This document shows positions 2,045-7,286 of a stretch of DNA of 46,768 nt, piece after piece (within the stretch, counting starts at the first letter, position 1; each line of letters starts with the position of its first letter). The stretch covers positions 1 through 46,768 of the forward strand of contig WFNF01000038.1 of NCBI GenBank assembly GCA_015488775.1, in the 5' to 3' direction. The translations under genes and the position numbers were made by a program. The notes beneath the pieces were generated by a model, which was given only the letters and a program-made list of their open reading frames with translations, was not told the DNA's origin and did not search any database. Source of the DNA: Helicobacteraceae bacterium. GTDB taxonomy: Bacteria; Campylobacterota; Campylobacteria; Campylobacterales; Sulfurimonadaceae.

Positions 2045-2713
2045 ATGAATGGTAAATATTATGTAGCTTTAGATGCTTGGGGAGAACTTCTTGGTTATCC
2101 TGCTTTTTTTGATTGGGAAATAGATTGGGATAAATGTGATGACCCAAAAAAAACAGGAGCATTAATAAATTGTACTCAAGAGGTAATTGAATTAAAAGTA
2201 AAGCATAAAAAAATTTCTTTTGATTATTGCAGTGCAGCGGGATATCTTGAATACTTTGTATCAGAAGATTTTTTGAATCTCATTAAAGAGGTACAAACAC
2301 CCTTGTATAAATCCAAGCCTATTAGATTTTTAAATAAAAAAGGTGATGATGTTTCAACAAAAAAATACTTTTTAATTATGTTTAATGTAGAAAAAACTGA
2401 ATATTATGTAAACGAGAAAGAGTGCGAGTATGTTATACCTGATGAAGCGTACCCAGATGAGACAGAACTGATTTCACTATCCATTAATTATGAACGACTA
2501 AACTCTTATGATATTGCACCCTCTTTATCCTATGGTTTACCTACAAGTTTGTTTGTAAATAGTGCTATTTTAGAAGCTAAGGCAGTTAAAAATATGAATT
2601 TTGAGTTTCTTGAAATTGACAATGCTCCAACTGTTCTTTATAAAAGAGAACATGAATCTTACGCTCCACTAAATGGCTTGAAAAGATATAAAGAAACGGA
2701 TTTACAAAAATAA
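2045..2713 (+). CDS. putative immunity protein (Imm11/Imm43-like), hypothetical
   Basis: A 222-residue soluble protein rich in aromatic and acidic residues, with no signal peptide. The N-terminus (MNGKYYVALDAW) and C-terminal region (FLEIDNAPTVLYKRE) resemble the style of Imm11/Imm43-type immunity proteins that neutralise polymorphic toxins, but I cannot confirm a family. RBS AAGG lies 7 bases before the ATG, inside the end of the truncated barrel gene. It is the first of a run of short genes of the same type without an intact toxin gene, which suggests an orphan immunity cluster. Function is inferred mainly from context. Confidence 0.55.
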   Translation: MNGKYYVALDAWGELLGYPAFFDWEIDWDKCDDPKKTGALINCTQEVIELKVKHKKISFDYCSAAGYLEYFVSEDFLNLIKEVQTPLYKSKPIRFLNKKGDDVSTKKYFLIMFNVEKTEYYVNEKECEYVIPDEAYPDETELISLSINYERLNSYDIAPSLSYGLPTSLFVNSAILEAKAVKNMNFEFLEIDNAPTVLYKREHESYAPLNGLKRYKETDLQK

Positions 2714-3825: not shown

Positions 3826-4293
3826 ATGCCACGAGTTAGTTTAGATAATCTTATCGATATCTATTATCAAATACAAGATGCTTATAAAGATTTAAATTCT
3901 CAAGAAAAGATAGATGAATTGCTTAGAATAGAATCATTACATAAAACTACTATTATAATGTCCCCATATGTCAAGACCAATCCAGATATTTTTAAGAACC
4001 ATAAAAAGTATCATTTTTCTACACTAGAACCTATTGATTTAGAATTTCAACTAAACGATATCCTTAATACAAATAACGAGTTTATAGATACGCAAATATT
4101 TGAAGACTTGTTAATCTATACAGGAGAATATTTTCCTCTTTCTACTATAGGTTACTATTCTAAGAAAAAAGAGCATATTGATCAGTGGTTAAAATATCTG
4201 AGTGACAATAAAGATATGTACCGTTCTGGACGTTGGTTTAGATATGGTAAATATGTAGAAGATAAATCAATCATAAAATATAGGATAGCATAA
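3826..4293 (+). CDS. hypothetical protein in immunity cluster
   Basis: A 155-residue soluble protein with an AAAGGA RBS 8 bases upstream of the ATG. It is mostly helical with a beta-like middle (KKYHFSTLEPIDLEFQ) and an aromatic/basic C-terminus (YRSGRWFRYGKYVED). No recognised motif. It is convergent with the next gene, the two stop codons being adjacent (4293/4294). Its size, solitary nature and neighbours suggest an orphan immunity gene, but this is inference only. Confidence 0.5.
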   Translation: MPRVSLDNLIDIYYQIQDAYKDLNSQEKIDELLRIESLHKTTIIMSPYVKTNPDIFKNHKKYHFSTLEPIDLEFQLNDILNTNNEFIDTQIFEDLLIYTGEYFPLSTIGYYSKKKEHIDQWLKYLSDNKDMYRSGRWFRYGKYVEDKSIIKYRIA

Positions 4294-4932
4294 TTAAATA
4301 GTACCCTTTGGAAATTCTTCCCACATAAGCTGAGATGTAACCTCTGAAATTGGCACAAATACAACTGTTCTATCTTCAACCAAAGCCAGTGCATCAACCA
4401 TCTCTTTGTGTACAATAGGTAAAGTCGCACCATATTCAGAATATGGCAAATCAAAACATAATCGTTCTTCTAAAGGTAACTTTTCTAATATCTTCTGATT
4501 CAATTGATAAGAGTTAATACTTTCATATTTGCTTAGAGGATCTGCATTAGGGTCTAAAGTCAAGTCACTTTTTTCAACATCTAGCCAATTACTAGGCACC
4601 TGTTGAATCATTACTAACCAATATCCTTCAAAGTACTCTTCACCATCAGGAGAGGTAATATACGCTTTGTGTAACTTAATACATTCAAGATCATATTTAT
4701 AAAAATATTTCTCTTTTAAAGCATTAGAAATTAAAAGTTCTCCACCTATAATATACATACATTCTTGTGGACGTAAACCTGCATCCCAATTATCATCATC
4801 TATTTCCATATGCACTGGTCTAATAACATCTTCATCAAACTCGACATCCATATCATCTGCTTGATCTAAGTCAATAAAAGGTTTACGATTATCCCAAGTC
4901 ATTACATAATATTCATCATTTATATTCATCAT
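4294..4932 (-). CDS. putative immunity protein (Imm11/Imm43-like)
   Basis: A 212-residue acidic soluble protein starting MMNINDEYYVMTWDN, with a good AGGAAAT RBS. It shares the 'short strand - acidic loop - GGELLISNALKEK' layout of Imm11/Imm43-type proteins, where a half-buried helix (ISNxLKEK) precedes a central sheet. The end (VTSQLMWEEFPKGTI) is echoed by a decayed fragment about 1.1 kb away at 5399-5437, showing that a related gene once existed next door. A relic frame ends in TAATG overlap with this start, as toxin genes often do with their immunity genes. Family call is tentative; an immunity role is inferred. Confidence 0.55.
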   Translation of the reverse strand: MMNINDEYYVMTWDNRKPFIDLDQADDMDVEFDEDVIRPVHMEIDDDNWDAGLRPQECMYIIGGELLISNALKEKYFYKYDLECIKLHKAYITSPDGEEYFEGYWLVMIQQVPSNWLDVEKSDLTLDPNADPLSKYESINSYQLNQKILEKLPLEERLCFDLPYSEYGATLPIVHKEMVDALALVEDRTVVFVPISEVTSQLMWEEFPKGTI

Positions 4933-5095
4933 TAATTTCCTATTTTTAAATTATATGGACTATAATCAGGTAAGTTTGAAAAGTGCTTTTTAATACTTAA
5001 TCCTTTTTTCCAGCTCTATTTTGACAATCTATCCAATGTTGCATTAAACTCATCTCTAAAAGTTTGAGACCGTAAAATAAACTATATAAACCCAT
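4932..5095 (-). pseudogene. relic of a short reading frame upstream of the immunity gene (possible toxin tail)
   Basis: On the minus strand an ATG at 5095-5093 opens MGLYSLFYGLKLLEMSLMQ followed by HWIDCQNRAGKK, then hits a stop right after an A6 run (GGAAAAAAGG). Adding one A restores a continuous frame ending KKHFSNLPDYSPYN-LKIGN and a TAA that overlaps the ATG of the 4932 immunity gene (TAATG). The length, 164 bases, is one short of 55 codons, consistent with a single-base loss. The tail directly abutting an immunity gene is the usual position of a toxin C-terminus; the family is not recognised. A sequencing error in the A run is a simple alternative. Confidence 0.45.
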
Positions 5096-5107: not shown

Positions 5108-5155
5108 TTTAGAGGTGCTCTTTATTAAATTAATAATTTTTTTAGCTTATTATAT
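5108..5155. repeat. direct repeat A, copy 1
   Basis: About 48 bp starting TTTAGAGGTGCTCTTTATTA, nearly identical to copy 2 at 7147-7193 (one T of length difference and two mismatches near the right end). Both copies are in the same orientation, 2,039 bases apart. Confidence 0.85.
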
Positions 5156-5295
5156 TATTATTCATATAAATATAAAGTATCATCAGAAAAAATATACAAT
5201 AATAATTATGTTATTAATCTTTTTATCTTTGAGGATGAAAGCATGTGTATGTTGAAAAGATATAGCTTTTGTTGATGGAAAAAATAAGGACAAAA

Positions 5296-5437
5296 ATGCA
5301 AGATATAAATGAAGAGTACAAGTTTTTAACGTATAATCACGAAGATGATTGTTTGGATGATTTATTAACTGTTACTACTTCTTTAGAAGGTTGATCTTCA
5401 GCTTATGTGGGAAGAATTTCTAAGAAGTGCTTTTTAA
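5296..5437 (+). pseudogene. decayed paralogue of the 4294-4932 immunity-like gene
   Basis: ATG at 5296 opens MQDINEEYKFLTYNHEDD-CLDDL, resembling the N-terminus MNINDEYYVMTWDN of the 4294-4932 protein, and stops at 5392-5394. In another frame, 5399-5437 reads QLMWEEF followed by LRSAF and TAA, matching the QLMWEEF near the C-terminus of the same protein. The central ~150 codons are missing, so this is an internally deleted and frameshifted remnant on the opposite strand from the intact gene. Confidence 0.6.
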
Positions 5438-5480
5438 TTCAAGCTTACGCAATATAAAATTTAAAATTGCATATTTTTAC

Positions 5481-5552
5481 TTAAATAAAAGTTCTTAACT
5501 AAGAAATATATGTTTAGCACGTTCCAAATCTTCAAGCGTATCTATTCCAAAA
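5481..5552 (-). repeat. direct repeat B, copy 1: orphan copy of the kdsB 3' end
   Basis: A 72-bp segment identical except for one base to 7215-7286. On the minus strand it encodes the last 18 residues of KdsB (FGIDTLEDLERAKHIFLS) and the stop codon plus a few flanking bases. Sequence to either side is unrelated to kdsB, so this is a tail-only duplicate. Confidence 0.9.
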
Positions 5553-5583
5553 TAAGTAGTCTTGACATATTGGGACGCTATAG

Positions 5584-5619
5584 TGGATAAAAGTAAGATA
5601 ATTTACTAAGTTTTATCCA
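5584..5619 (-). terminator. hairpin at the end of the SUKH-TPR gene
   Basis: TGGATAAAA pairs with TTTTATCCA across an 18-base centre that itself contains GTAA/TTAC. It spans the TAG stop of the minus-strand gene. There is no clear U-tract, so termination is only suggested. Confidence 0.35.
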
Positions 5620-7132
5620 AAATTTTATCTCTTAGTTCTTTTGCATTTTCATCTTCAGGTTTAAGTTTTAGTGACTTTTCTATATATATTTTTGCTTCAT
5701 CATTGTTTTTTAAATGATTTTGAAGAAGAGCATAATTATAATGATAAAGTGCATTTTTTGTATCTTTTTTGATAGCAGTAAGTAGAAGTTCGCCTGCCTT
5801 GTCAAAATCTCGTCCAAGCTGATACATAAGAAGACAAGCATAACCATTACAAGCATACTTATAAGTCTTATCTATAGCTAAAGATTTTAAAAAATATTGT
5901 TCACTTTTTTCATAATCTTTAAGGTTAAATCTTAAAAATTTTGCATAATCTTTATAATCTCGTGCTTTATTATAGTCTGTTAATGACATAAGCTTTTCAT
6001 AATATACATCTACATAATTATCATCTTCTTTGTCTTCAATCAAGTCTATATATTGATATAACCAATACAAGTCAGAAGAATAATCAGCACGATTTTTCAT
6101 AAACATGTTTAGCTCTTCTTCACAGTCTTCAAGTTCTCTAAGAGTGTTTGAATAATAGTTTAGAAGATACCCATCATCTTCAGGATTTAGCTTGAATGCT
6201 TTTCTAAAGTAGATTATAGCTTCTTCAAAGTTACGACTTTCAAAAAGCTTATTTGCGATTTTACATAAGTCTTCAAAATTATTTGTGTCTAAATCTTCTG
6301 AGACAAGATTAGCAGATAGGCTGTCATCGTATTTTAAAAATTTATCAAAATTTTCATATATACTTGAGTTCATGTCATGTGAGAGATAGACCATGCGTAG
6401 TCTGTCTCTGTCTTGTTCATCAGGTAAGATACATATGAAATCTCCATTACCCATAGCAGTAGACATTAAGCCTTTTGTCAACTCCTTACTTATTTCACTG
6501 CTTTGCTTTTCATCAAACGCTAATAATGCTAACTCATAAAATTCGTTTAAATCATCTTCGTTATCACCGCGATACTCATTTGCAAAAGTGCTCATCAGTT
6601 GAAGTTTTGTTGCATGTTGTATAGCGTCATATCCACCTTGATACTCACCTAAATTTGCTATATCTTGTAAATCTACAGCGTACTCCATATCTCCAAACCA
6701 AAAACCATGGATAGCCCAAATATCTTTTAAAAATTGCGGATACTCTTTCCATTGAGAATTTTCAGTTATAGAACTTGGCATAATAGGGTTGAGATTTGGC
6801 TCACCACCGAAATAAAATAAGGCTTCACCATTTTTATCTTCCCCCACTAGGTATAAAGCACACCAATACTCTTTTTTAATAGCCTTTGCATATACTTTTA
6901 CAAAAGCTATATCTTTTACGTGTGGGATTATCTTTTGGAAAAAGTAATGTTTTTTTCCTAATGGAGCAAATAAAGTTTGCATAAATTCAGTTTCACTTAT
7001 ACCTTCATAGCTTTTCCAAGGGCAATCATCTGGTAGCTTATCTAAAGTTGCAAAATCTAAAAAGTCTTCTATATCATCAGCAATGTACTCTTTGATAGGT
7101 TTTGTTTTTTTATTAGGTGTTAAAAGTGTCAA
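5606..7132 (-). CDS. SUKH/SMI1-like and TPR repeat protein, putative immunity protein
   Basis: A 508-residue soluble acidic protein. The N-terminal half carries features of the SUKH (SMI1/KNR4) superfamily: a central block ending with GNGDFICILPDEQDRDR and VYLSHDMNSSIYENFDKFLKY near residues 228-275, matching the family's 'GDxhxhd...Vhhh.Hd...h..hFxxFL' end. Residues ~290-508 are TPR-like helical pairs (NFEEAIIYFRKAFKLNPED, NDEAKIYIEKSLKLKPED). SUKH proteins are common immunity proteins to contact-dependent and polymorphic toxins. The start is TTG, with AAGGA 8 bases upstream. It sits between the two copies of repeat pair A/B, so it looks like an acquired cassette. Confidence 0.7.
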   Translation of the reverse strand: MTLLTPNKKTKPIKEYIADDIEDFLDFATLDKLPDDCPWKSYEGISETEFMQTLFAPLGKKHYFFQKIIPHVKDIAFVKVYAKAIKKEYWCALYLVGEDKNGEALFYFGGEPNLNPIMPSSITENSQWKEYPQFLKDIWAIHGFWFGDMEYAVDLQDIANLGEYQGGYDAIQHATKLQLMSTFANEYRGDNEDDLNEFYELALLAFDEKQSSEISKELTKGLMSTAMGNGDFICILPDEQDRDRLRMVYLSHDMNSSIYENFDKFLKYDDSLSANLVSEDLDTNNFEDLCKIANKLFESRNFEEAIIYFRKAFKLNPEDDGYLLNYYSNTLRELEDCEEELNMFMKNRADYSSDLYWLYQYIDLIEDKEDDNYVDVYYEKLMSLTDYNKARDYKDYAKFLRFNLKDYEKSEQYFLKSLAIDKTYKYACNGYACLLMYQLGRDFDKAGELLLTAIKKDTKNALYHYNYALLQNHLKNNDEAKIYIEKSLKLKPEDENAKELRDKILDKT

Positions 7133-7146
7133 GTTCTATCCTTATA

Positions 7147-7193
7147 TTTAGAGGTGCTCTTTATTAAATTAATAATTTTTTAGTTTATTATAA
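7147..7193. repeat. direct repeat A, copy 2
   Basis: Same ~47-bp AT-rich repeat as at 5108-5155. Here it lies just upstream of the SUKH-TPR gene (minus orientation) and may carry its promoter. It is followed 22 bases later by repeat B copy 2. Confidence 0.85.
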
Positions 7194-7214
7194 TATAAAG
7201 CTATAAAGCTTTGA

Positions 7215-7286
7215 TTAAATAAGAGTTCTTAACTAAGAAATATATGTTTAGCACGTTCCAAATCTTCAAGCGTATCTATTCCAAAA
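7215..7286 (-). repeat. direct repeat B, copy 2 (native kdsB 3' end)
   Basis: The genuine 3' end of kdsB, duplicated at 5481-5552 with one mismatch over 72 bp. Confidence 0.9.

Follow-up and report, generated by a model that had tools for sequence, protein, structure and literature searches.

What does it mean when the end of a gene is found a second time, in the right orientation and with the right stop codon, and nothing of the gene lies upstream of it? This question is raised by the window, by which we mean the whole 46,768-nucleotide stretch of DNA analysed here, which is contig 38 of a 170-contig assembly of a bacterium of the Sulfurimonadaceae. An intact kdsB gene is followed there by an orphan copy of its own 3' end (Table 1). 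The initial annotation had described the copy as a 72 bp segment with one mismatch, and the comparison bears this out, with 71 of 72 positions identical (98.6%; blastn E-value between the copies 1.2e-29). The repeat search of the window reports the direct repeat pair as 5455-5552 and 7189-7286, with a spacing of 1734 bp. Because the lone mismatch (A at 5489, G at 7223) falls 3' of the stop codon, the 58 coding bases (5495-5552 and 7229-7286) are without difference, and there are no codon differences over the last 19 codons, stop included. Copies this similar fit a recent event in the window, which is one part of what had been proposed for them (a recent event or gene conversion); in the relatives described below the tails range from near-identical to decayed. 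A search for further copies had also been suggested, and in the whole genome, with 2.70 Mb on 170 contigs and a completeness of 95%, no third copy of the 72 bp segment was found. Among relatives, six other kdsB loci have a comparable downstream tail. We argue that foreign genes probably entered behind kdsB, leaving a kdsB tail as a mark, and that the kdsB 3' end appears to be a site where new genes arrive repeatedly, most likely by ordinary recombination rather than by a dedicated integrase.

Table 1. Features of the kdsB region of the window, with positions counted from its first letter.
Feature	Position	Strand	Evidence
kdsB (CMP-KDO synthetase), intact, 239 aa	7229..7948	-	ORF; Pfam CTP_transf_3, E-value 1.7e-57
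Native kdsB 3' end, repeated (58 coding bases and 14 past the stop)	7215..7286	-	Repeat search
Second direct repeat, copy after intact kdsB, about 15 bp from the start of the TPR ORF	7147..7196		Repeat search
Single large ORF between the tails, 508 aa, presumed inserted cargo	5606..7132	-	Pfam TPR_2, 1.8e-11
Orphan kdsB 3' end copy, 71/72 identical	5481..5552	-	Repeat search
Probable remnant of a decayed gene, lying between the orphan tail and the second repeat	5296..5439	+	Resembles ORF 4294-4932
Second direct repeat, copy after orphan tail, upstream of ORF 4294-4932	5108..5158		Repeat search
ORF of 212 aa, first intact gene after the orphan unit, same direction as kdsB	4294..4932	-	ORF
Imm43-like immunity protein gene	2045..2713	+	Pfam Imm43, 30.7 bits (cut-off 25)

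The name kdsB was given in the initial annotation and agrees with the Pfam family matched; among the best 80 of 396 matches, the closest KdsB relatives come from records that bear the names of Sulfurimonas, Sulfuricurvum and other Campylobacterota. The gene rpsO is not adjacent to kdsB in the window, and no tRNA gene near kdsB was found within it. A second direct repeat, 94% identical and missed by the initial annotation, lies downstream of each kdsB tail. Both the tail and this second element are thus doubled in the window, with different genes after each copy, and the locus appears to consist of two stacked units with the order kdsB tail, spacer, leader and cargo. The presumed cargo of the unit next to the intact gene reads the same way as kdsB and has its TPR repeats in the C-terminal half; when it was compared with 41 genomes the full-length match was to itself only, with eight others matching the TPR part only. 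An inverted similarity of 24 bp by the junction (5559-5582 and 3954-3977) was rejected, being no better than other chance pairs.

On the far side of the orphan tail, the end of the gene remnant corresponds to the end of the 212-residue ORF through an inverted repeat (4292-4333 and 5398-5439; 42 bp, 86%, E-value 9.6e-7), and the resemblance between their starts is weak (7 of 21 residues, E-value 0.001). No Pfam or NCBIfam family was matched by this ORF, which is immunity-like by its neighbourhood only; a distant relative is present on contig 45 of the same genome (13268-13648; 34% over residues 66-189). The small genes between 2045 and 4932 include one above the Imm43 cut-off and one that is weakly DUF7832-like (below the cut-off), the rest being without a telling family. 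No toxin gene was recognised beside them, and the cluster may be an orphan immunity array.

We looked for similar tails at other kdsB loci. Eighty loci were taken from GTDB genomes (the best 80 of 396 matches) and 80 more from the order, in which 389 of 398 genomes have a match, making 161 with the window. Eight that duplicated another locus across the 600 bases surrounding the stop were dropped, leaving 153 distinct loci, as were four with fewer than 600 bases downstream (L030, L071, L076 and L159). The remaining 149 comprise 77 from the first set, 35 from the family of the window, 36 from other families, and the window itself. Each kdsB end was compared with its own downstream 8 kb by an ungapped repeat score, for which a cut-off of 18 was chosen after the scores were seen. 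The window scores 69, and six of the 148 other loci score at least 18 (L140 68, L062 44, L115 27, L074 22, L029 21 and L039 19), which supports the earlier suggestion that kdsB may be a target of recombination or integration; the cut-off is not reached by any of the 36 loci from other families. As L115 and L074 have one tail in common (97% over 460 bp), the six represent five events besides that in the window. Control windows internal to kdsB (n = 1043) score 16 at best, except for one with 66 that is taken to be the longer tail of L140, and reverse-strand controls (n = 149) also reach 16 at best. Three further loci, L097 and L171 (both 16) and L183 (15), were left out as not above the best controls.

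The ends of other genes give a different picture. At the same cut-off, tails are found for 6 of 139 kdsB ends, or 5 without L140, which trips the paralogue flag because its repeat is long, compared to 0 of 498 other convergent ends (350 + 55 + 82 + 11); the Fisher test gives 1e-4 for the six and 4.5e-4 for five events, values that are optimistic given that the genomes are related. Among gene ends reading in the same direction, a score of at least 18 is seen for one of 1337 (954 + 127 + 228 + 28), and that one is a flagged paralogue. Lowering the threshold to 17 lets in 3 of the 350 convergent ends from the kdsB loci, among them the L039 repeat read from its opposite side, and 2 of the 228 same-direction ends from other genomes, of which one is a flagged paralogue scoring 40. 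An earlier control with 1056 other genes produced two matches at 17, one again being L039. The mirror scar, a tail of rpsO, was found at 0 of 78 loci (best score 14), rpsO being a short anchor.

The nature of the tails can be seen best where a locus with the insert can be set beside one that lacks it. In three pairs (L140 with L042, L029 with L027, and L039 with L036) the orphan tail and the DNA that follows continue into the flank of the insert-free locus, and for L062 with L109 the same continuity is found in two blocks, one of 60 bases followed by a second. The comparison loci lack the insert but may hold other genes further on, and rpsO lies within 40 bases only in L042 of the four. All four relatives thus have an intact target gene and a displaced end joined to the native flank (for L062 in two blocks), and this continuity indicates that genes were inserted behind kdsB and that the orphan is the displaced original end. 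On the side of the intact kdsB, the match in these four pairs stops within 2 bases of the gene end, and the right junction varies, that is, homology is one-sided and the other junction differs from case to case. Relative to the gene end, the right junctions are at -173 in L140, -65 in L029, -48 in L062, -20 in L039, -57 in the window and about -30 in L115. For the window no close relative was found in the genomes searched; we infer that its 72 bp segment likewise represents the 3' end of a kdsB allele that was displaced.

Differences between the two ends of a locus bear on where they came from. In L140, seven synonymous changes and one non-synonymous change are seen among 50 sense codons, together with a swap of the stop codon; as the differences are mostly synonymous, both ends would have evolved as coding sequence before they were joined, which points to two alleles. 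This sign is clear in L140 only. L062 and L115 each show one synonymous codon and one stop swap, and the tails of L029, L074 and L039, with non-synonymous changes in 4 of 13, 2 of 10 and 1 of 7 codons respectively, look decayed and older and are uninformative on this point.

Displaced gene ends are familiar from site-specific integration. For instance, e14 or phage 21 insert at icd in such a way that the element restores the target gene and the old end is displaced. By the same logic, small elements carrying a kdsB end might insert at the kdsB 3' end, restore kdsB and displace its old end, the integrase being encoded elsewhere or lost. The preference for kdsB over other gene ends would fit this, as would the fact that the repeat ends no more than 2 bases from the gene end in L140, L062, L115, L029 and L039, with kdsB intact. 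We nevertheless consider it unlikely. The initial annotation had pointed to an integrase that uses kdsB as its attachment site, and we searched for one with a profile built from 20 members of the tyrosine integrase family Phage_integrase, which finds all 20 of 20 held-out members again. In the 161 kdsB loci, which contain 7,780 ORFs, there are two matches, both with an E-value of 0.053, and these are the same ORF in the duplicate loci L040 and L109, 6.8 kb downstream of kdsB. No convincing integrase gene of the tyrosine type was thus found in or beside an insert at the 161 loci, and a regular-expression search for tyrosine recombinases also found none. Phage_integrase matches do occur in 120 of 121 genomes of the family. 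The genome of the window has three, and the one of these that is listed lies on contig 48, which is without the 72 bp segment. The junctions also argue against integration, since one integrase should give one crossover and a constant repeat start, whereas the tail starts differ by up to about 150 bases. The second repeat of the window would not be expected of such elements, and the genome has the segment at the native and the orphan site only. Searches for a mobile carrier were negative throughout: the region 5200-5900 has no megablast match in the phage collection, no KdsB relative was found in viral contigs, and ORF 4294-4932 has no match in plasmids. A variant of the idea, in which the kdsB end in the Sulfurimonadaceae is a dedicated docking site for small cassettes that lack a recombinase and are moved in trans by an unrecognised enzyme, with a kdsB tail on every cassette to repair the target gene, appears to us hardly probable.

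The tail could instead be what is left of an older kdsB copy, mostly deleted after a replacement or tandem duplication of the gene, with the 3' end remaining. L140 lends itself to this view, with its mostly synonymous differences and the roughly 155-170 bases of the kdsB end that it keeps. Yet no long intermediate was seen, the detected tails covering at most about 170 of 720 bases, and other genes stand between the copies every time, common only to L115 and L074, and we regard such a history as rather improbable. An error of assembly, in which two strain alleles were merged at their shared tail, has to be thought of in an assembly of 170 contigs, as two alleles of one locus would produce just such stacked units. 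However, the junction at 5552/5553 requires reads of its own, the same architecture is present in separate assemblies, and L115 and L074 share one scar, which together make an artefact very unlikely indeed.

The reading that we favour over an integrase site, with a probability of roughly 0.57, is homology-anchored capture, either by homology-facilitated illegitimate recombination (HFIR) or by the single crossover of a circularised fragment of kdsB and cargo. Incoming DNA from a sibling strain would contain a kdsB end with its own downstream cargo (in the window the spacer, the leader and the TPR gene). The incoming kdsB end would recombine with the resident kdsB through homology, and the far end of the cargo would be joined illegitimately some 58 bases short of where the resident gene ends; alternatively, the fragment would be circularised first and then integrated through one crossover. 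The product would in order consist of the intact kdsB, the new cargo, the truncated old kdsB end and the old downstream region, and if this were repeated at the same gene, cargoes would stack behind kdsB with one tail per event. The second repeat of the window, doubled together with the tail, agrees with such a stacking of two alleles of one locus. The donor would presumably be a sibling strain, the process RecA dependent and the route natural transformation; the families ComEC and DprA are present in the genome of the window, which makes DNA uptake plausible. Five of the six tails in relatives are shorter than 70 bases, which is short for RecA homology if the tail is the crossover site. Homology-anchored capture alone leaves the preference for kdsB unexplained, and to account for it over other gene ends we add the assumption that kdsB borders a gene-content hotspot.

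The region between kdsB and rpsO can indeed be read as such a hotspot, being variable in length and mixed in its genes. In the 78 of 161 loci with rpsO downstream, the gap is between 37 bp and 8.5 kb long: 31 loci have at most 171 bp, 8 have 217-528 bp, 34 have 979-3954 bp and 5 have more than 7 kb, with some genomes represented twice. Two of the six tail-bearing relatives, L062 and L039, have no rpsO within the DNA searched. The cargoes at the scars are equally mixed. L140 carries two AAA_14/DUF4143 ATPases, and L115 and L074 encode an MNT-type nucleotidyltransferase and its HepT-like partner. A Sel1 protein occurs in L062 and again in an extra insert of L074. L029 has a glycine-zipper protein beside one of 108 residues that belongs to no family, and L039 has proteins of 719 and 158 residues, both likewise without a family. 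In PADLOC, candidate defence families are matched by the ATPases and by the nucleotidyltransferase, a prediction from their sequences.

Several smaller observations concern individual loci. Compared to L115, L074 has a Sel1 gene and a second small gene at the kdsB stop, from 3961 to 5015, before the older MNT/HepT insert, and this extra insert is a stacking of two events. L033 has an insert of about 690 bp relative to L032 (7168-7857, or +9 to +698 after the kdsB stop) with no repeat detected; it contains a PIN-domain gene and a small upstream gene, and is toxin-antitoxin-like. A 75 bp stretch just after kdsB is common to L140 and L062, with 39 bp of it in L073. As a candidate att arm this stretch was rejected, matching among 121 family genomes only the genome of L140 itself and, over 40 bp, a stretch of G010 that we take to be fliA-like. 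As to folds, L062 is unusually stable (z -3.7) and L140 is not (z 0.0).

Kirchberger and colleagues reportedly described immunity arrays in Vibrio cholerae and suggested HFIR for them. In the part of PMC5361080 that was available, the gene 3' end in such arrays is shifted back, with HFIR suggested as a possibility. The likeness to our loci is that new modules arrive at a conserved place and old ones are displaced with gene 3' ends; the Vibrio cholerae site, as far as the same text goes, is a type VI secretion cluster, whereas the site here is kdsB and the cargo in relatives is mixed. A similar example at the level of mechanism is found in Escherichia coli, where the available portion of PMC3240628 reports a PCR product for duplication of the anchor end in 56 of 60 clones. 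Duplications of 109-950 bp in the 14 that were sequenced are ascribed there to a single crossover by a fragment that had been trimmed and then recircularised, and HFIR proper is said to be usually accompanied by a deletion of similar size (PMC3240628), none of which was found here. One homologous end, duplication of the anchor end and the lack of an own recombinase are, on that text, common to both; the events it covers are from the laboratory and at lacZ, whereas ours took place in nature, repeatedly and at a single housekeeping gene, within a bacterial family. Integrase-free hotspots, as presented in the excerpted text of PMC5635113, also show conserved neighbours that enclose variable genes, often lack mobility genes, and have homologous recombination at the flanks as the proposed route; compared to these, individual insertion scars are visible at the kdsB loci.

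Closest in place is Campylobacter jejuni, another member of the Campylobacterales, for which the consulted section of PMC6874264 names kdsB-CJE0905 as a previously described insertion site of tetO. The insertion is likewise next to kdsB; a kdsB tail repeat is not mentioned in that section, and the comparison is by description only. The site is thus not wholly new. Among the papers listed in the literature searches, no report of recurrent capture at kdsB in the Sulfurimonadaceae was found; the process is known in kind, and what is new is that kdsB is used repeatedly. What it offers is a chromosomal site at which the gain of genes without an integrase can be followed one event at a time, because an insertion can leave the tail of a conserved gene behind. 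This makes it testable how hotspots without mobile elements get filled, and it ties an environmental family to a published kdsB insertion site in Campylobacter.
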